Source: Octadecabacter ascidiaceicola
GTDB lineage: Bacteria; Pseudomonadota; Alphaproteobacteria; Rhodobacterales; Rhodobacteraceae
Assembly (NCBI RefSeq): GCF_900185015.1
Contig: NZ_FXYD01000003.1
Location: forward strand, 62,001 to 126,000
Direction: 5' to 3'
DNA: 64,000 nt
Part shown: in pieces, positions 21,175 to 42,589 of the stretch
Layout of the letters: each line of letters starts with the position of its first letter
Position numbering within the stretch: position 1 is the first letter of the stretch
Made by a program: the position numbers and the translations under genes
The notes under the pieces: model-generated
Told to the model about the DNA's origin: nothing
Seen by the model: only the letters and a program-made list of their open reading frames with translations
The model's database searches: none

Positions 21175-21546
21175 TTAGAGTGCAATCCGCACGATTGCGA
21201 AAACGCCAGCAGCCGCAGCCGCGTAGCTTAAACAGATGGACCCGATGATCAGTGCCTTGCGGGCAAACCCGTGCACGTAATCTTCGATCAGCGTTTGCAC
21301 GCCACCTTTGAAATGCAGGAAGCCCACAAGCAATGTCAGGATGCCGACAATCGCGGGGAATGGGCGGGCATAATAGGCCGCCGCCTCTTCATAAGACATG
21401 CCCAGCGCGTAGCCGTATGTGAACACGAACAGCGGGATCAAACCACACAGTGCCACAGAAGACACCATCATGTGCCAGTGATGTTCAGTCCCTGTTTTGG
21501 CAGAACCCATTCCAGCAGCGCGTTTACGATCAGTCAAAAATGCCAT
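21175..21546 (-). CDS. sdhD: Succinate dehydrogenase membrane anchor subunit
   Basis: A 123-residue protein with three membrane helices, HHWHMMVSSVALC at the start of helix I, and HFKGGVQTLIEDYVHG between helices, which carries candidate heme/quinone residues. It follows sdhC by 12 bp and precedes sdhA. SdhD is poorly conserved in sequence, so the call relies partly on position. Confidence 0.93.
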   Translation of the reverse strand: MAFLTDRKRAAGMGSAKTGTEHHWHMMVSSVALCGLIPLFVFTYGYALGMSYEEAAAYYARPFPAIVGILTLLVGFLHFKGGVQTLIEDYVHGFARKALIIGSICLSYAAAAAGVFAIVRIAL

Positions 21547-21558
21547 GGATCAGACCCC

Positions 21559-21942
21559 TTACAATACGATGACGGTGAAAATGGTCAGCAGAACCGACAC
21601 AAGAATAATCAGCTGGCCCATACGCTCGGACGACTCGATGTCGAGGAAATGGCCGCTGTCCCAGATCAGGTGCCGGATACCAGCAAGCGAGTGGTACCAA
21701 AGGCAGGCAACAGACCCGAACATGACAAGATCACCAAACCAGCTGGTGATAAAACCATTTGCGCGAGCGTAGGCCTCAGGTCCGGATGCAAGGGCGGCGA
21801 ACCACCAAACTGTCAACAACGCCGCGACGATCAGTGCATTGCCTGTCAGCCGTGTAAAGATCGACGTCATCGACGTGAGCTGTGGTCGATAAATCGACAA
21901 GTGGGGGGAAAGTGGGCGGTTGCCCCGGTTCACGTCGGCCAT
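21559..21942 (-). CDS. sdhC: Succinate dehydrogenase cytochrome b556 subunit
   Basis: A 127-residue three-helix subunit with the family signature RPLSPHLSIYR near the N-terminus and HSLAGIRHLIWD, which carries the axial heme b histidine. It is the first gene of the sdh operon. The upstream 180 bp hold TATAAT at 22008-22013 and a paired GTGATCAC palindrome. Confidence 0.96.
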   Translation of the reverse strand: MADVNRGNRPLSPHLSIYRPQLTSMTSIFTRLTGNALIVAALLTVWWFAALASGPEAYARANGFITSWFGDLVMFGSVACLWYHSLAGIRHLIWDSGHFLDIESSERMGQLIILVSVLLTIFTVIVL

Positions 21943-22013: not shown

Positions 22014-22081
22014 CGGCGGTGTCACGGTACGTGGGCGCTAACAGAGGTTGAATCTTGCCACTGAATGGCGCTTTTTTCGTC

Positions 22082-22116
22082 TTTGTGATCACAGCTTTAC
22101 GGCTAGTGATCACAAA
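22082..22116. promoter_or_regulatory. Paired GTGATCAC operator upstream of sdhCDAB
   Basis: TTTGTGATCACA (22082-22093) and AGTGATCACAAA (22105-22116) have centres exactly 21 bp apart and mirror each other. The near centre is 78 bp upstream of the TATAAT centre. The same paired arrangement precedes sucC, and one copy precedes the GntR gene at 42558. Confidence 0.75.
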
Positions 22117-29750: not shown

Positions 29751-29883
29751 TCTGGTGCAAAATCAGGCCTGCGTCACGCACGCGGGCCAATCCACTGGCG
29801 CTCCGGCGCTGCGAGGGTAGACTATTTCCCAACTGATTCCGCTTTAAGCGCATATTTACCGTGTTGGCGCTAACCACTTATTA

Positions 29884-29920
29884 ATTTGTGATCACACTTT
29901 TTAAAGCTGTGATCACAAAT
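29884..29920. promoter_or_regulatory. Paired GTGATCAC operator upstream of sucC
   Basis: ATTTGTGATCACA (29884-29896) and TGTGATCACAAAT (29908-29920) are perfect inverted copies, centres 21 bp apart, each itself palindromic. The pair lies 97 bp before the sucC start codon; the near centre is 68 bp upstream of the TATATC centre. Confidence 0.8.
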
Positions 29921-29954: not shown

Positions 29955-29983
29955 TTTTTAAGCTCGTTTAACGGGTCTATATC
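29955..29983 (+). promoter_or_regulatory. Probable suc operon promoter
   Basis: TATATC (29978-29983) is preceded at 17 bp only by TTTTTA (29955-29960), a very weak -35. As at sdh, a decent -10 with poor -35 fits activation from the upstream operator. Confidence 0.4.
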
Positions 29984-30016: not shown

Positions 30017-31210
30017 ATGAACATTCACGAATATCAGGCAAAAGCACTGCTCGCTTCTTATGGGGCACCCGTCAGTGATGGCCGCGCAGTCCTCAAAGCT
30101 GAGGACGCTAAGACCGCCGCTGGCGAAATGGACGGCCCACTTTGGGTTGTTAAGGCGCAGATCCACGCAGGTGGCCGCGGCAAAGGTAAATTCAAAGAAG
30201 CAGACGCTGGCGATGCCGGCGGTGTTCGCCTGACAAAATCCGCTGTTGAAGCGGCTGAAGAAGCTAAAAAGATGCTGGGCCGCACATTGGTCACGCACCA
30301 GACTGGCCCAGCCGGTAAGCAAGTGAACCGCATCTACATCGAAGACGGTTCCGGCATTGAAACAGAAATGTACCTCGCCCTGCTGGTTGATCGTCAGACA
30401 TCCCGCATCGGTTTCGTTGTCTCTACTGAGGGCGGCATGGACATCGAAGAAGTGGCCGAGAAGACCCCTGAAAAAATCCTGAACTTCACAGTGGACCCAG
30501 CGACAGGCTACCAAGCCTACCACGGCCGCCGCGTTGCATTCGCCCTCGGTCTTGAAGGCCAGCAGGTTAAGCAGTGCGTGAAACTGATGGGCCAGCTTTA
30601 CAAAGCCTTCACTGAAAAAGACATGGAAATGCTTGAGATCAACCCGTTGATCATCACAGACGAAGGCAGCCTCAAGGTTCTCGACGCGAAGGTCGCATTC
30701 GACGGCAACGCGGTTTACCGCCACGCTGACATCGCCGCCCTACGCGATGAAACAGAAGAAGACCCGAAAGAACTGGCAGCGTCCAAGTTTGACCTCAACT
30801 ACATCGCGCTCGACGGTGAAATTGGCTGCATGGTCAACGGTGCTGGCCTCGCGATGGCGACAATGGACATCATCAAACTTTACGGTGCTGAGCCTGCAAA
30901 CTTCCTCGACGTTGGTGGCGGCGCTACCAAAGAGAAAGTGACAGAAGCGTTCAAAATCATCACGTCCGACCCACAGGTCAAAGGCATCTTGGTGAACATC
31001 TTCGGCGGCATCATGCGCTGTGATGTGATCGCAGAAGGTGTTGTTGCTGCGGTGAAGGACGTTGGTCTTCAGGTTCCACTGGTTGTGCGTCTCGAAGGGA
31101 CAAACGTTGAAGAAGGCAAAGCCATCATCAACAACTCCGACGTAGACGTCATCGCGGCTGACGACCTTAAGGACGGCGCTGAAAAGATCGTGAAAGCGGT
31201 AAAGGGTTGA
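30017..31210 (+). CDS. sucC: Succinyl-CoA synthetase beta subunit (ADP-forming)
   Basis: A 397-residue ATP-grasp subunit, opening [19 protein letters not shown] with the nucleotide motif [16 protein letters not shown], followed by LEINPLI and the CoA-ligase domain [19 protein letters not shown] and [18 protein letters not shown] lies before the ATG. It couples succinyl-CoA cleavage to nucleotide phosphorylation and is the first gene of the sucC-sucD-odhAB transcription unit. Confidence 0.98.
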
Positions 31211-31737: not shown

Positions 31738-32619
31738 ATGGCCATTCTCATCGACGAAAACACCAAAGTCATCTGTCAGGGCCTTACAGGTTCGCAGGGT
31801 ACATTCCACTCTGAACAGGCAATCGCATACGGCACCAACATGGTTGGCGGCGTGACACCGGGTAAGGGCGGCCAAACGCACCTCGACCTGCCAATCTTCA
31901 ACTCCGTCCACGAAGCAATGCACGTCACCGAGGCGAATGCCTCCGTGATCTACGTGCCTCCGCCCTTCGCAGCGGACTCTATCCTTGAAGCGATTGACGC
32001 CGAGATGGAATTGATCATCTGTATCACTGAAGGCATCCCAGTTCTGGACATGATGAAAGTGAAGCGCGCGTTGGAAGGCTCCAAATCCCGCCTCGTTGGT
32101 CCAAACTGCCCGGGTGTTATCACACCTGACGCTTGCAAAATCGGCATCATGCCGGGCCACATCCACAAGCGTGGTTCCGTTGGTGTTGTGTCCCGCTCCG
32201 GTACGCTGACCTATGAAGCTGTAAAGCAAACATCTGATAGCGGCCTTGGCCAGTCCACTGCTGTGGGCATCGGCGGCGACCCGATTAAGGGCACTGAGCA
32301 CATCGACATCCTCGACATGTTCCTTGATGACGACGAAACACAGTCCATGATCATGATCGGTGAAATCGGTGGTTCCGCAGAAGAAGAAGCCGCTGAATTC
32401 CTGACCGAACAGAAGAAAAAAGGCCGCTGGAAGCCAGTCGCTGGTTTCATCGCTGGCCGCACAGCACCTCCAGGCCGTCGCATGGGCCACGCTGGCGCGA
32501 TTGTTGCAGGCGGCAAAGGCGACGCTGAAAGCAAGATCGAAGCGATGAAGTCCGCTGGTATCGTTGTGGCTGATAGCCCTGCGACACTGGGCGAAGCTGT
32601 GTTGAAGGCGATTGGGTAA
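31738..32619 (+). CDS. sucD: Succinyl-CoA synthetase alpha subunit
   Basis: A 293-residue subunit with the CoA-binding Rossmann fold ([18 protein letters not shown]), [19 protein letters not shown], and the phosphohistidine region [22 protein letters not shown] lies 9 bases before the ATG. It is separated from sucC by the small secreted-protein gene. Confidence 0.98.
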
Positions 32620-32666: not shown

Positions 32667-33155
32667 ATGAAACCTATCCTAGCCATTCGCTCAGCGATGT
32701 CGCATGCATTTGACTTTACTGGCCGCGCTACTCGATCAGAGTTTTGGTGGTTTTTCTTGTTTATTGCAATTTTGCATTCTGTGTTGGCAAACTACTTTGC
32801 TGCGCCAAATCCAAACGGTTTCTCGTTCCACTTCGGCATCTATCTATCGCTCGACATAAATGAACCTTGGTGGAGCAATGTTTACGCGATCGTCTTTGTT
32901 CTACCATTTGCGTCGGCTCTCGTACGACGGGGCCACGATATTAACGTACATGGAAGCAAGTTCTTTATCGTTCCATTCATCGTCTTTGCAGCATTCGTTG
33001 TTATCGTGAAAGCACTACCTACCCAAGAAATTTTCAACACATTTATGTTTGTTTCCTTACTATTTCTGTTTGTAGGCTTTTTGATTGTGACTCTCAAACG
33101 ATCCGACCCCGACACCAACCGTTTTGGCCCTAACCCCAATGAGGTCCCCTCATGA
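32667..33155 (+). CDS. DUF805 membrane protein
   Basis: A 162-residue inner-membrane protein with the DUF805 signature FDFTGRATRSEFWWFFLF near residue 15 and three or four membrane helices, with ALVRRGHDINVHG as the second conserved block. ATG 32667 follows GGAG; the earlier in-frame codon at 32625 lies within the hairpin. Its stop overlaps the odhA start by 4 nt (ATGA), so it is translationally coupled to the 2-oxoglutarate dehydrogenase genes. Function is unknown. Confidence 0.85.
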   Translation: MKPILAIRSAMSHAFDFTGRATRSEFWWFFLFIAILHSVLANYFAAPNPNGFSFHFGIYLSLDINEPWWSNVYAIVFVLPFASALVRRGHDINVHGSKFFIVPFIVFAAFVVIVKALPTQEIFNTFMFVSLLFLFVGFLIVTLKRSDPDTNRFGPNPNEVPS

Positions 33156-36109
33156 CTGACCAATCTTCCAACGACCAATTCCACGCATCCTCCTTCATGC
33201 AAGGGCACAATGCGGAATATATCGAGCAGCTTTATGCGCGCTATGCGGAAAACCCGAACGCGGTCGACGAAAGTTGGCAGGCGTTTTTCGCCTCGTTGGG
33301 CGATGCCCCTGCGGATGCTCAGGCCGAGGCCGCTGGCGCATCTTGGGGCCGTGCTGATTGGCCACCGATCCCGAACGACGATCTAACAGCCGCACTGGAT
33401 GGTCAGTGGGCTGCGGAACCCGAAGCCGCCAGCAAGAAGATCAAAGCAAAGGCCGCAGCTGCGGGCGTTGCCGTGTCCGAAGACCAAGTGCGCAACGCGG
33501 TGCTGGATTCCATCCGCGCCCTGATGATCATCCGCGCCTACCGTATTCGCGGGCACCTGGTGGCTGACCTTGACCCACTCGGTATGCGGGATCAGACCCC
33601 GCATCCCGAATTGGACCCAGCGTCCTACGGCTTCACCGCCGCCGACATGGACCGCAAGATTTTCATCGACAACGTGCTGGGCCTTGAGCACGCGACCATG
33701 AACGAAATCCTCGCCATCGTGCGCCGCACCTACTGCGGCACCTTTGCGTTGCAGTACATGCACATTTCCAACCCCGAAGAAGCGGGTTGGCTGAAAGAAC
33801 GCATCGAAGGCTACGGCAAAGAGATCGCGTTCACCAAAGAGGGCCGCAAGGCGATCCTGAACAGCCTTGTTCAGGCCGAGGGCTTTGAGAAATACCTGCA
33901 CGTCAAATACATGGGCACCAAGCGTTTCGGCCTTGATGGTGGCGAAAGCCTAATCCCCGCGATGGAGCAGATCATCAAACGTGGCGGGCAATTGGGCCTG
34001 CGCGATATCGTGATCGGCATGCCCCACCGTGGCCGCCTGTCCGTCCTCGCCAATGTTATGGAAAAGCCCTACCGCGCGATCTTCAACGAATTTCAGGGCG
34101 GCAGCTTTAAGCCCGAAGACGTGGACGGCTCTGGCGATGTGAAATATCACCTCGGCGCGTCGTCTGATCGTGAATTTGACGGCAATTCGGTTCACCTGTC
34201 GCTAACTGCGAACCCGTCCCACCTTGAGGCCGTGAACCCCGTTGTTCTGGGTAAAGTCCGCGCCAAGCAAGACCAGACAAACGACGTTGACCGCACTAAA
34301 TCTATGGCGATCCTGCTGCACGGCGATGCGGCCTTCGCGGGCCAAGGCGTTGTTGCAGAAGGCTTCGCGCTGTCAGGTCTGCGTGGCCACCGCACAGGCG
34401 GCACCATGCATATCGTTGTGAACAACCAGATCGGGTTCACCACGGCGCCGCACTTCAGCCGCTCATCGCCTTACCCAACGGACAATGCGCTGGTGGTCGA
34501 AGCACCGATTTTCCACGTGAATGGCGATGATCCCGAGGCTGTGGTTCACGCCGCCCGCGTCGCCACTGAATTCCGCCAAAAGTTCCACAAAGACGTGGTT
34601 CTCGACATCATTTGCTACCGCCGCTTTGGTCACAATGAGGGCGACGAGCCGATGTTCACCAACCCGGTGATGTACAAGAAGATCAAACAGCAAAAGACCA
34701 CGCTGACGCTGTATACAGATCGCCTCGTGCAAGACGGCCTCATGCCTGAGGGCGAGATCGAGGATATGAAGCAAGCGTTTCAGGATTATCTGGCCGCTGA
34801 ATTCGAGGCCGGAACAGATTACAAGCCAAACAAAGCTGATTGGCTGGACGGCAAGTGGTCCCATCTGGACAGCCAGAAAGACCTGTACCAGCGTGGCCAA
34901 ACGGCGATCAAAAAAGAGACCTTTGATCAAATCGGTAAGGCGCTGACATCCGCACCCGAAGGCTTCCCGCTGCACAAAACCGTGGGCCGTATTCTGACTG
35001 CGAAAGCCAAGATGTTTGAAACCGGCGAAGGGTTTGACTGGGCAACCGGCGAGGCACTGGCATTCGGGTCCCTACTAACCGAAGGCTACCCTGTGCGCTT
35101 GGCCGGCCAGGATTCCACACGCGGCACGTTCTCACAGCGTCATTCCGGCCTCGTGAACCAAGACACCGAAGAACGTTACTACCCGCTGAACCACATCCGC
35201 GACGGCCAAGGTAACTACGAAGTCATCGACTCCATGTTGTCCGAATACGCGGTTCTTGGATTTGAATACGGTTACTCGCTGGCAGAACCAAACGCGCTGA
35301 CCCTCTGGGAAGCCCAGTTTGGTGACTTTGCAAATGGTGCGCAGATCATGTTTGACCAGTTCATTAGTTCCGGTGAATCCAAATGGCTGCGTATGTCCGG
35401 CCTCGTCTGCCTGCTGCCACACGGCTATGAAGGCCAAGGCCCAGAGCACTCCTCCGCACGTCTTGAGCGTTTCTTGACCATGTGTGGCGGTGACAACTGG
35501 ATCGTGGCGAACTGTACGACACCTGCGAACTACTTCCACATCCTGCGCCGTCAGTTGCATCGCAGCTACCGCAAGCCGCTTATCATGATGACGCCAAAGT
35601 CGCTGTTGCGTCACAAACTGGCCGTGTCCAAAGCGGAGGAATTCCAAGACGGTTCCTCGTTCCACCGCATCATGTGGGACGACGCCCAGCACGGGAATTC
35701 CGTCGCCAAATTGGTCGCTGACGACAAGATCAAGCGCGTCGTCATGTGCTCTGGCAAAGTCTACTTCGACCTTCTTGAGGAACGCGACGCACGCGGCATC
35801 AATGACGTCTACCTGATGCGTTACGAGCAGTTCTATCCATTCCCTGCGCAATCCGCAGTGAAGGAATTGGAACGCTTTACAAACGCCGAAATGGTCTGGT
35901 GTCAGGAAGAACCAAAGAACCAAGGCGCTTGGTCGTTCATGGAGCCCAACATCGAATGGGTCCTGACACGCATCAAAGCCAAGCACACACGCCCCGTCTA
36001 CGCGGGCCGCGCCGCTGCCGCCTCGCCCGCCACGGGCCTCGCGTCGCGCCACAAAGCAGAACAAGCCGCTCTCGTTGACGAAGCGCTCACCGTTAAAGGA
36101 TCAAAATAA
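33152..36109 (+). CDS. sucA: 2-oxoglutarate dehydrogenase E1 component
   Basis: A 985-residue thiamine-diphosphate enzyme that decarboxylates 2-oxoglutarate. The N-terminal helix [19 protein letters not shown] is the usual E2-binding segment. The ThDP domain shows [33 protein letters not shown] and [22 protein letters not shown] follows, and the transketolase-like half has [12 protein letters not shown] and [16 protein letters not shown]. It overlaps the DUF805 gene by 4 nt and the E2 gene by one base (TAATG). Confidence 0.97.
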
Positions 36110-37593
36110 TGACCGAAGTCCGCGTCCCCACCCTTGGCGAATCCGTCACCGAAGCAACTGTTGCCACATGGTTCAAAAAGCCCGGCGATACCGTCGCACA
36201 AGACGAAATGCTGTGTGAGCTTGAAACAGACAAAGTAACTGTTGAGGTGCCCGCACCCGCCGCTGGTACCCTGTCCGAAATCGTTGCCAATGAAGGCGAT
36301 ACAGTTGGCGTTGATGCGCTCTTGGCACAAATCTCAGCTGGTGGCGAAGCCGCCCCAACGAAGGCCGCTCCCGCCCCACAGGCACAAGAAGCCGCACCTG
36401 TATCCGGAGGAAATGAAATGGATATTATGGTTCCAACGCTCGGTGAATCCGTAACCGAAGCGACAGTATCCACATGGTTCAAGAAACCGGGCGAAGCATT
36501 CGTCGCTGACGAAATGCTGTGCGAGCTTGAGACTGACAAAGTTTCCGTCGAAGTGCCTGCACCCGCTGCTGGTGTATTGACCACGGTCCTCGCAGAAGAA
36601 GGCGCCACCGTTGAAGCGGGCGGCAAACTCGCCGTGATGTCTACAGACGCAAGTGCAGCCCCTGCACCCGCTCCAGCCGCTGCTGCTGCGGCCCCAGTAG
36701 CAGCTTCTGGAAAGGACGTCGAAGACGCACCTTCCGCCAAGAAACTGATGGCCGAAAACAACCTCACAGACGTGCAAGGCACCGGCAAAGACGGCCGCGT
36801 GATGAAAGAGGACGTGCTAAAAGCAATGGCCGCCCCTGCGCCAGCCACTGTTGCCGCCGCCCCACCACGCGCACCTGTTGCAGCTGACCAAGCCGCCCGC
36901 GAAGAACGCGTGAAAATGACACGCCTGCGCCAGACCATCGCGCGCCGCCTGAAAGAATCTCAGAACACAGCCGCCATGCTGACAACCTACAACGAGGTCG
37001 ACATGACCGAGGTGATGGCCCTACGTAATGAGTACAAAGACCTGTTCCTCAAGAAGCACGGCGTAAAGCTCGGCTTCATGTCCTTCTTCACCAAGGCCTG
37101 TGTGCACGCGCTGAAAGAAGTGCCCGAAGTGAATGCCGAAATCGACGGCACCGATGTGGTTTACAAAAACTACGTCAACATGGGCATCGCGGCGGGTACG
37201 CCAACAGGTCTGGTTGTTCCGGTTCTTAACGACACCGACCAGATGTCCTTTGCCGAGATCGAAAAAGCCATCGCTGAAAAAGGCGCAAAGGCGCGTGACG
37301 GAAAACTCAGCATGGAAGAAATGCAGGGCGGCACATTCACCATCTCAAACGGTGGTGTCTATGGTTCCTTGATGTCGTCCCCGATCCTGAACCCACCACA
37401 GTCCGGTATCTTGGGAATGCACAAAATCCAAGACCGCCCGATGGCGATCAAAGGCGAAGTCGTCATCCGCCCAATGATGTATCTGGCCCTGTCCTACGAT
37501 CACCGCATCGTCGACGGCAAAGGCGCTGTGACGTTCTTGGTCCGCGTCAAAGAAGCCCTTGAAGATCCACGTCGTCTGTTGATGGACCTATGA
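36109..37593 (+). CDS. sucB: Dihydrolipoyllysine succinyltransferase E2 with two lipoyl domains
   Basis: A 494-residue E2 core protein. Two near-identical lipoyl domains (about residues 1-78 and 104-180) each carry ELETDKV, with lipoylated Lys42 and Lys144. They are joined by Ala/Pro-rich linkers. Then come the E3-binding domain ([20 protein letters not shown]) and the catalytic domain with DHRIVDG (His465, Asp469). E. coli SucB has one lipoyl domain; two are seen in some alphaproteobacteria. The copies differ at few positions, suggesting internal duplication or gene conversion. Confidence 0.96.
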
Positions 37594-39561: not shown

Positions 39562-40950
39562 ATGGCTAATTACGACGTCATCATCATCGGCTCCGGTCCC
39601 GGCGGCTATGTCTGCGCGATCCGCTGCGCACAGCTGGGCCTGAAAACGGCCATCGTCGAGGGGCGTGAAACGCTGGGGGGGACATGCCTGAATGTTGGTT
39701 GTATCCCGTCAAAGGCGTTGCTGCACGCATCGCACATGCTGCACGAAGCACAGCACAACTTCGCGGCTATGGGCCTGAAGGGTAAAACCCAGTCCGTCGA
39801 TTGGAAGCAAATGCAGGCCTATAAGGATGATGTCATTGGACAGAACACCAAAGGTGTTGAATTCCTTATGAAAAAGAACAACGTTGATTGGCTTAAGGGA
39901 TGGGGATCCATCCCTGCGGCGGGCCAAGTCAAGGTCGGCGATGAGGTCCACGAGGCCAAGAACATCATCATCGCGTCCGGTTCTGAAGTGTCTTCGCTTC
40001 CCGGTGTCGAGATTGATGAAAAGACGGTTGTGTCCTCCACAGGTGCGTTGGAATTGAAGAAGATTCCAAACAAGCTGGTTGTGATTGGCGCTGGCGTCAT
40101 CGGGCTTGAGCTTGGCTCTGTTTATAGCCGCCTAGGTTCCGAAGTGACCGTCGTTGAATTCCTCGACGCAGTGACCCCCGGCATGGATGGTGAAATTCAG
40201 CGGGTGTTCCAGAGAACTCTTAAGAAACAAGGTATTAACTTCGTCATGGGTGCTGCCGTACAGGGCGTAAAAACCAAGGGCGGTAAGGCGACAGTTACCT
40301 ACAAACTGCGCAAGGATGACAGTGAAGCGACGGTTGATGCGGATACCGTTTTGGTCGCGACAGGTCGGCGTCCCTACGTTGACGGGCTTGGCCTCGATGC
40401 GCTGGGTGTTGAGCGTTCCGAGCGCGGTCAGATCAAGACAGACGGCAACTACGCCACGAACGTTGCGGGTATTTACGCGATTGGCGATTGCATCGATGGC
40501 CCAATGCTAGCCCATAAAGCCGAAGACGAAGGCATGGCCTGTGCAGAAGGCCTTGCCGGGCAAAAACCGCACGTTAACTACGGTGTGATCCCTGGGGTCA
40601 TCTACACGCACCCTGAAGTCGCGAATGTAGGCAAGACCGAGGAACAGCTGAACGAAGAAGGCATCGATTATAAGGTCGGCAAGTTCTCCTTCATGGGCAA
40701 CGGCCGCGCTAAGGCGAACTTTGCGAGCGACGGTTTTGTAAAACTCCTCGCGGATAAGGCGACAGACCGCATCTTGGGCGCGCATATCATCGGCCCGATG
40801 GCTGGGGACCTTATCCATGAGGTATGCGTTGCGATGGAATTTGGCGCTGCAGCTGAAGATCTCGCACGCACATGCCACGCCCACCCAACCTACTCCGAGG
40901 CCGTGCGCGAAGCTGCATTGGCCTGTGGTGATGGTGCGATCCACGCGTAA
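39562..40950 (+). CDS. lpd: Dihydrolipoyl dehydrogenase (E3)
   Basis: A 462-residue flavoprotein that reoxidises lipoyl groups of the oxoglutarate dehydrogenase complex. FAD motif [14 protein letters not shown], redox disulfide Cys42-Cys47 in [16 protein letters not shown] motif [23 protein letters not shown] motif 2 [12 protein letters not shown], and the active-site His441 in [18 protein letters not shown] lies 7 bases before the ATG. It follows odhAB after three unrelated genes. Confidence 0.97.
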
Positions 40951-41083: not shown

Positions 41084-41911
41084 ATGCGTAAGCTTCTATC
41101 GACCCTCGCCCTCGTTTTCGGGCTTTCAACAACCGCATCAACAGCAGATGCCTATGTCGTATCGGGCGAAGATTTACGTTTTGTAGCCGAGACAACCCTC
41201 TCTGGTTCCGACGGCACCCCTATGGCTTTGTGTCACCTTGTCGACTTCACGAATGCGCTGTTTGTTCCCGTCTATACAGCGGTACAGTCTTATGCACTGT
41301 CTCCGGATGGATGCACGGGCGATGCGTACCGCTCACTTTCCGCGGCACAGTTTACTGCCATGCAAGCGTCTGGACTTCTTCCTGCTGGGCTCCCTGAAAC
41401 GCCGGCGGCGAACATCAAAGACCTTTTGTGGGGCCATGCCTGGTTGGTCCTCGCCGTCATCGGCATCGTGTTTCGCGCGCTTATGGCATTTCGCGATCGT
41501 GGCCCACGAAAATCCAAATCACCAGACGCCCTCGCAATCCACTCCCTTGTCGCGATGAGCCAAGTTGCTATCGCAGATGGGCGGATCGATGACGCAGAGG
41601 TACAACAAATTTCAAGCATCCTGACCAGACTGACGGGAACGTCTTATGCTCCCCAACAGGTCATGGAGCTCTTGAGCCGGTTGAATCCGTCCCCTTCTGA
41701 TATTGATCAGATCGGCGATGGCCTGTCTGAACAAGACCGCCAGATCGTCCTAGAGGCCGCGTTGAACATTGCTGTTGCTGACGGTGAAATTCATCCAAGC
41801 GAATACGCCGTAGTTTCAGATTTGGCCCAACGCATGCGTATCGGCGCGGATCAATTCCGCAGCGCAATGGCACGCATCTCAGCGCATTTGCAGACGATTC
41901 CGCAGGTTTAG
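41084..41911 (+). CDS. Membrane-anchored TerB-like domain protein
   Basis: A 275-residue protein with signal peptide MRKLLSTLALVFGLSTTASTADA, an extracytoplasmic segment with two cysteines, one membrane helix (about residues 117-135) and a cytoplasmic C-terminal domain. That domain has two helical repeats with MSQVAIADGRIDDAEVQQI and NIAVADGEIHPSEYAVV, the D-G-x-I/x-E pattern of TerB/DjlA-type domains that may bind metal. It overlaps the GntR gene convergently by 4 nt. Its role is unclear; a membrane stress sensor is one possibility. Confidence 0.75.
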   Translation: MRKLLSTLALVFGLSTTASTADAYVVSGEDLRFVAETTLSGSDGTPMALCHLVDFTNALFVPVYTAVQSYALSPDGCTGDAYRSLSAAQFTAMQASGLLPAGLPETPAANIKDLLWGHAWLVLAVIGIVFRALMAFRDRGPRKSKSPDALAIHSLVAMSQVAIADGRIDDAEVQQISSILTRLTGTSYAPQQVMELLSRLNPSPSDIDQIGDGLSEQDRQIVLEAALNIAVADGEIHPSEYAVVSDLAQRMRIGADQFRSAMARISAHLQTIPQV

Positions 41912-42558
41912 ACCTTCAACATCCGCAGGCCTTGGGTCGCGTCTGAACGCACAGCGAGCTTTAGGCTTGCCTCGTCGCCTGCCTTAAGCGCTGCAAGTAT
42001 CAGCAGGTGGTTTCGCGGCGGTTCCGTGCGCCGCAAACGCCCGTAAAGTTTTGACATCGTCGGGCCAAGTTGCAGCCAAATGGTTTCCGCCATAGCCAAC
42101 ATTGCTGGGGCCTGTGCACGTAAGTAAAGGGTTCGGTGAAATTCAAGGTTCAGCTTGATGTATCCTGGCGCATCCTGTCGCGCGATGACCCGCGCCACGC
42201 GCCCGTTGATTTCTTCCAAGCGTTCGATCAACGCCATATGTGCCCTCGGTAATGCGCGCGCGGCAAGCTCTGGCTCTAGCAGTGCCCGCAGAGTCGCTAG
42301 TTCCTCGATCCGTTCGTTGGAAAGTTCCGGCGTCGATACACGCCCGGATGAGGATAGGAATAATGCCCCTTCCGCCACCAGACGTCGTGCCGCTTCACGT
42401 GCGGGCGTCATCGATACCTCAAACTCTTTGCCGATCCCACGCAGCGTTAGCGCCTGCCCGGGGTCAATTTCACCGTGCATGATACGGGCGCGCAACGTGC
42501 GGTACACACGATCATGGGCGGCACCGGTGGGTTCGTTTGCTTTGGACTGGATCAACAT
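41908..42558 (-). CDS. GntR-family (FadR/FCD) transcriptional regulator, probable AkgR orthologue
   Basis: A 216-residue regulator: winged helix at about residues 15-80 (YRTLRARIMHGEIDPGQALT, KEFEVSMTPAREAARRLVAEGAL) and a helical FCD effector domain (ELATLRALLEPELAARAL, LNLEFHRTLYLRA) whose His/Asp/Glu residues may bind metal and a carboxylate ligand. In Rhodobacter sphaeroides the GntR regulator AkgR activates TCA genes. This one lies in the same sdh-suc-odh neighbourhood, and a TTTGTGATCACA palindrome precedes it, the same palindrome found at sdh and suc. That makes it the best candidate for the factor. The ATG has no clear ribosome-binding site. Confidence 0.85.
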   Translation of the reverse strand: MLIQSKANEPTGAAHDRVYRTLRARIMHGEIDPGQALTLRGIGKEFEVSMTPAREAARRLVAEGALFLSSSGRVSTPELSNERIEELATLRALLEPELAARALPRAHMALIERLEEINGRVARVIARQDAPGYIKLNLEFHRTLYLRAQAPAMLAMAETIWLQLGPTMSKLYGRLRRTEPPRNHLLILAALKAGDEASLKLAVRSDATQGLRMLKV

Positions 42559-42563
42559 GCGGC

Positions 42564-42576
42564 ATTTGTGATCACA
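42564..42576. promoter_or_regulatory. Single GTGATCAC operator at the GntR gene
   Basis: ATTTGTGATCACA lies only 6 bp before the ATG of the GntR gene, where a ribosome-binding site or start point would be. Such a position suits autorepression, in contrast to the far-upstream pairs at sdh and suc. Confidence 0.65.
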
Positions 42577-42589
42577 TCACGAGGTAACG

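Follow-up and report, generated by a model that had tools for sequence, protein, structure and literature searches.

What reads the two identical palindromes that precede sucC in Octadecabacter ascidiaceicola, and what does their fixed arrangement mean? We addressed this question in a stretch of 64,000 nucleotides, hereafter the window, whose coordinates are used throughout (palindromic sites are given without strand). The initial annotation had described two perfect TGTGATCACA palindromes upstream of the suc genes, and both were found on reading the sequence, the distal copy, O2, at 29887..29896 and the proximal one, O1, at 29908..29917, with the claimed centres (29891.5 and 29912.5) 21 bp apart. 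Besides this direct reading, the two sites are backed by the genome counts and the relatives described below. The ATT/AAT flanks ascribed to them are present on the two outer sides of the twin; on its inner sides CTT and AGC are found instead. From the end of O1, 99 bp lead to the start codon (30017) of sucC (30017..31210, plus strand), the first gene of the presumably controlled unit. It is followed by sucD (31738-32619), odhA (33152-36109), odhB (36109-37593) and lpd (39562-40950), all five recognized by NCBIfam match, and these genes probably form one transcript.

The same arrangement had been reported upstream of sdhC. Spacing (21 bp) and the 8-bp core GTGATCAC are indeed shared, but identity is incomplete: the proximal sdh site, O1, at 22084..22093 is a perfect palindrome, whereas the distal one, O2, at 22105..22114 has one outer base changed and is TGTGATCACT when read towards sdhC, its core being intact. 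The sdhC gene (21559..21942, minus strand), identified by position and translation, is the first of sdhCDAB; sdhD (21175-21546) was assigned by position only, with no NCBIfam match at 1e-20, and sdhA and sdhB were named by NCBIfam match.

A single TGTGATCACA site, absent from the initial annotation, was found at 42567..42576, eight bases ahead of the start codon of a regulator gene of 216 aa (41908..42558, minus strand). It lies in the 31-bp gap (42559-42589) between this gene and the gene of a YgjP-like metallopeptidase, which ends just upstream of the site and lies on the same strand as the regulator. The regulator matches Pfam PF00392 (50.1 bits, cut-off 27) and PF07729 (68 bits, cut-off 24.3) and is a member of the FCD (FadR-type) subfamily of the GntR family, with an N-terminal winged helix and a C-terminal FCD domain; no NCBIfam name was obtained for it above cut-off. 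The metal or ligand pocket of FCD domains consists of an Asp and three His. Here, residues N137, H141, H184 and D206, mapped to the pocket by eye, are the same in 97% or more of 64 AkgR orthologues, and may constitute a changed ligand pocket. The AkgR of Rhodobacter sphaeroides, which we take to be RSP_0981, is said in an mBio abstract of 2015 to be a direct activator of TCA-cycle genes, and the regulator of the window is presumably orthologous to RSP_0981.

Could the palindromes have arisen by chance? About three copies of a 10-bp palindrome are expected per 3.2 Mb, and five copies of TGTGATCACA were counted in the whole genome (3.23 Mb). The fifth (G000:C2:155189) lies inside a 602-aa reading frame, by eye that of a transporter substrate-binding protein, so that it is probably a chance copy, and it was set aside as an extra target. 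The sequence TTGTGATCACA occurs four times in the genome, in three promoters only, those of suc, of sdh and of the GntR/FCD gene 41908-42558, against none for the backward control. When up to three mismatches were allowed in core pairs spaced by 21 bp, the genome yielded 36 pairs, two with no mismatch, none with one, three with two and the rest with three, and the backward control three in all. These counts, together with the family-wide counts and controls that follow, rule out chance, whose probability we regard as negligible.

Conservation was measured in 120 genomes, one per genus, of what we take to be the family Rhodobacteraceae. Only exact-core pairs were counted, promoters with a core mismatch being scored as single or none. 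The exact pair, GTGATCAC-N12/13-GTGATCAC, is present in 105 of the 120 genomes, and its backward control in none of them. A hand count gave two pairs in 84 genomes, one in 20, three in one and none in 15. SucC was found in 114 genomes, and 111 sucC and 72 sdhC promoters were read. The initial annotation had proposed to look for the pair at orthologous promoters, and there it was recovered: a core pair spaced by 20 or 21 bp lies within 300 bp of 98/111 sucC and 60/72 sdhC genes (61/72 for sdhC if the limit is set at 400 bp). Spacing was 21 bp in 91 and 20 bp in seven of the suc pairs, and 21 bp in 54 and 20 bp in seven of the sdh pairs. Eleven control palindromes with shuffled halves had 0 to 3 sites each in the same 111 suc and 72 sdh promoters, and none placed two sites in one promoter.

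The genomic context is known for 171 of the 191 pairs: 98 precede suc, 61 + 11 sdh, and one fumC, the 98 and the 61 having come from searches upstream of those very genes. Second pairs outside the suc stretches were found ahead of sdhC-sdhA in all 11 cases examined, leaving aside the third pair of G084. This third twin (L413:2001-2029, 21 bp spacing) is situated 124 bp ahead of the class II fumarase gene fumC, which means that the regulon is able to extend to fumarase. The code for TCA-cycle genes that had been proposed is narrower than its name: as a rule two promoters in a genome carry it, and fumC joins them in 1/120 genomes. Among genomes having AkgR, 10 of 70 sdhC promoters had no strict pair within 300 bp (six with a single site, three with none, one other); in G074, one of the three with none, an sdh pair lies just past 300 bp, beside a run of N.

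Does the pair follow the regulator? AkgR orthologues, 46-100% identical by our own cut, were found in 104 of the 120 family genomes. Regulator and pair were both present in 102 genomes and both absent from 13; two had the regulator only (G082, G103, which lack the exact pair) and three the pair only (G061, G138, G156), giving a Fisher p of 6e-13 that ignores kinship. In this table G075 (46% identical) was counted as having AkgR, and G061 (38%), G096 (41%) and G143 (best E 3e-32) as lacking it, because second matches, among those listed, are 37-44% identical. A search with a loose cut-off of G061, G138 and G156, whose assemblies consist of 210, 50 and 320 contigs and are rated 91, 77 and 100% complete, gave no AkgR orthologue. 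At the sucC promoter, 95 of 96 genomes with a clear AkgR have the pair and one has a single core; 10 of 11 genomes without AkgR have none and one, G138, has the pair; and the four with a weaker regulator match alone are divided between two with a pair and two without. Lineages lacking both partners are scattered on the SucC tree, with six changes for the pair and eight for AkgR, few of the branches being well supported. An independent-pairs test on this poorly resolved tree could draw on just two pairs whose branches are well supported, which is not enough for significance.

In G151 (L229), which has no AkgR orthologue, one decayed site, TGTGATCAAA, is found where the proximal suc operator sits; it resembles a relic left after loss of the regulator.

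That three genomes have the pair but no AkgR orthologue could be taken to mean that some other protein binds the palindromes, either a factor reading GATC or an FCD-GntR paralogue with an identity of about 37-44%. Such paralogues are present in many genomes of the family, and the core also occurs near related FCD-GntR genes elsewhere. However, in G024, G029 and G034, for example, AkgR is the sole match at E 1e-30 and each genome has two pairs, whereas G096 and G143, with a weaker match only, have no pair. Moreover, all copies of TTGTGATCACA in the window's genome are at suc, at sdh and at gene 41908-42558 itself, and AkgR is the protein named in the consulted part of PMC6365646. We consider binding by another regulator very improbable. 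The initial annotation had assigned the palindromes to the GntR/FCD protein encoded at 41908-42558, and this assignment is well supported, because the pairs sit at suc and sdh and track the regulator, with only five discordant genomes; the site at the regulator's own gene agrees with it, as do the motif and targets in print, so far as the consulted parts of those papers go. In all, we hold it very likely that this AkgR-type regulator has its operator in the twin palindromes.

Beyond the family sample, contigs of GTDB species were scanned for two perfect TGTGATCACA copies at most 30 bp apart, which biases this sample to perfect palindromes. At least 119 stretches were obtained, most of them with Rhodobacterales titles and roughly a dozen otherwise, among the matches listed. 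They hold at least 123 pairs, at least 104 spaced by 21 bp, at least 11 by 20 bp and at least eight by other distances. Among the matches listed, 115 pairs are spaced by 20 or 21 bp, and in 110 of them sucC or sdhC follows the end of the pair at 95-169 bp; the five outside this count are in L054, L100, L121, L145 (its first pair) and L152. Spacings of 23, 23 and 24 bp were seen, again among the matches listed, beside an AkgR-like gene in other groups, before it in L144 and L149 and after it in L075. A sample of 289 genomes drawn from the whole class includes four of the family, each with AkgR and two pairs. None of the 285 others has an AkgR orthologue at E 1e-45, with up to ten candidates scored per genome; 17 of them have some pair, at spacings of 12 to 33 bp, two at 21 bp, and in this sample the backward control was not zero in every genome (42 in G211, 1 in G368).

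Outside the family, pairs of GTGATCAC at 21-24 bp precede (L384, L144, L149) or follow (L075) other GntR-type genes, that of L384 having been identified by eye. Placing such sites in tandem may thus predate AkgR.

Why two sites at one distance? We propose that each 8-bp core with its A/T flanks would bind one AkgR dimer, and that the two dimers, two helical turns apart on one face of the DNA, would probably touch and bind cooperatively. Contact and cooperativity are slightly favoured in our estimation. The flanks were compiled from 98 suc and 61 sdh promoters picked for exact cores. The outer T has a frequency of 0.94 in suc and 0.89 in sdh, and the outer A of 0.96 and 0.85; on the inner sides, A reaches 0.90 in suc and 0.48 in sdh, and T 0.81 and 0.64. 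Conservation is therefore stronger at the outer T/A than at the inner positions, by a small margin in suc and by a clear one in sdh, as if the pair were one larger symmetric unit. This speaks against a variant within the same operator reading, according to which AkgR dimers bind each palindrome independently and the 21-bp spacing serves to face the polymerase or a second protein, with no contact between dimers. Placement on the same face would by itself account for spacings of 20 or 21 bp only, and isolated sites do occur: most akgR promoters have one site, and in six genomes with AkgR the sdh promoter has a single exact core. But a rule concerned only with the face predicts spacings of 31-32 bp too, and none was seen among suc promoters, while the exact-core sdh spacings other than 20 or 21 bp are scattered, at 56 bp and above. 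Independent binding appears to us rather unlikely, if still a serious contender. Taken further, the idea of touching dimers leads to a single dyad-symmetric super-operator for a dimer of AkgR dimers, acting as a dedicated, switch-like activator that would tie succinyl-CoA synthetase and 2-oxoglutarate dehydrogenase (suc/odh) to succinate dehydrogenase (sdh) and occasionally to fumarase; we put it forward tentatively, as a possibility to which we give a little less than even weight.

The position of the twins relative to the promoters was then compared between relatives. As had been claimed, the suc promoter has a -10 hexamer TATATC (29978-29983) and a weak -35. The likely -10 region, CTATATC (29977..29983, plus strand), is 64 bp from the O1 centre and falls in a -10-like column in the alignment of 98 relatives. 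This column lies at 73-75 bp in 75/98 promoters, at 64 bp in 13/98, O. ascidiaceicola included, and elsewhere in 10/98; its letters vary, and the commonest word, CTATAC, is present in 6/98 suc promoters. The distance to the suc start codon forms two main groups, with medians of 101 bp (14 promoters) and 113 bp (75 promoters), nine promoters being further off. On the tree the near group shows only mild clustering, as low a value being reached in 14 of 500 shuffles.

A strict rule of helical phase between twin and promoter was considered and is suggestive only: the two distance groups are 12 bp apart rather than 10.5, and the -10-like words are varied.

For sdh, a possible -35, GTGACA (22020..22025, minus strand), is located 63 bp from the O1 centre and is kept in relatives: GTGAC[AT] is found 61-64 bp from the proximal centre in 48/61 sdh promoters, with single outliers at 40, 53, 75 and 84 bp. 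A TATAAT at 22013-22008 is too near GTGACA to leave a spacer of the usual length; it may be part of a different start. If transcription of suc starts about seven bases past the -10, its sites would be centred at about -77 and -98. With GTGACA as the -35 and a spacer of 17 bp, the sdh sites would be at about -98 and -119; with TATAAT as the -10, they would be at about -87 and -108.

With such positions, AkgR bound upstream could recruit RNA polymerase to the weak suc promoter and to the sdh promoter in a class I-like manner, and a joint rise in sucCD-odhAB and sdhCDAB expression would follow. A counterpoint is the distance of the sites from the start, about -77 to -119, which is large for a simple class I contact. 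Many FadR/FCD regulators are repressors, and the twin might instead be a repressor operator, with AkgR keeping suc and sdh off until a metabolite releases it; the single akgR site, directly ahead of the start codon, would suit such a role. At suc and sdh, however, the likely promoter elements are well downstream of the twin, suc has a weak -35, and AkgR is an activator in print, in the part of PMC6365646 consulted. Repression of suc and sdh thus seems very improbable to us, and activation by AkgR remains the reading adopted here.

The single site at 42567-42576 likely reflects autoregulation of akgR. AkgR would damp its own synthesis, presumably by autorepression, in most species and not in all. 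The core was found in the own promoter of 85 of 117 akgR orthologues; in 83 of them it starts 10-29 bp upstream of the coding sequence, and in the other two at a greater distance. These 117 loci include 16 close relatives of the window's own genus; with those removed and the window genome retained, 70 of 101 loci have the site. Autoregulation of every akgR was rejected, as the site is missing from 32 of the 117.

If the super-operator is real, regulator and operators would be lost together. More generally, a regulator known from one species is extended here to a sharply defined code, legible from sequence in most genera of the family, with one regulator, one spacing and, as a rule, two twins in each genome. 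The system could be a test bed for activation by FadR-type regulators through tandem dimers, and would offer a simple lever for the flux through the TCA cycle in Rhodobacteraceae, bacteria that are common in the sea.

Other regulators are known that share targets or site with AkgR. CceR (RSP_1663) is a LacI-type carbon regulator of which sdh is also a predicted target, and differs from AkgR in protein family and in motif, [AGT]GTT N6-8 AAC[ACT] (PMC4344238, consulted in part). A CceR-like site, TGTTGGCGCTAACC, was found at 29862..29875, outside the twin and 11 bp upstream of it; it fits the form [AGT]GTTN6AAC[ACT] of the same source and is a possible second input at suc. The sdh promoter has a half site only, GTTAGCGC, at 22042-22035 on the minus strand. 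The N6 form, the sole one scanned, is present in 8/111 suc and 2/72 sdh promoters, versus one and three for the reversed control, and the half site in 14/111 and 9/72, versus none and two. Co-control by CceR as a general rule was thus not upheld, the N6 form being found in 8/111 sucC promoters only.

By sequence, the nearest solved structure is that of Escherichia coli McbR (PDB 4p9f), a regulator of a different name that matches over both domains (E 1.5e-18). In Pseudomonas simiae, the GntR regulator of the deoxyribonate cluster, PS417_07240, to which AkgR is 32% identical, has GTGATCAC at -47 to -40 of its own gene; in the part of PMC6365646 consulted, that system differs in that one site is mentioned and in that a local catabolic cluster, rather than TCA-cycle genes, is concerned. 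The closest parallel is R. sphaeroides itself. There, the GntR-family RSP_0981 has sucCD, sdh and odh as predicted targets, and its locus tag is near those of suc, odh and sdh, consistent with a shared neighbourhood (PMC4344238, in part), while GTGATCAC is reported among the sites of AkgR, described as an activator (PMC6365646, in part). A rigid twin spacing was not met in a literature search by title and start of abstract, nor in the consulted parts of PMC6365646 and PMC4344238, the main AkgR paper and the supplements being outside this scope. O. ascidiaceicola thus shares with the R. sphaeroides AkgR regulon, as far as those parts describe it, the regulator family, the suc, sdh and odh targets and the core GTGATCAC, in another organism. 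For R. sphaeroides, both the regulon and the core motif have been published, and the rigid twin spacing across the family may be the part that is most likely new.
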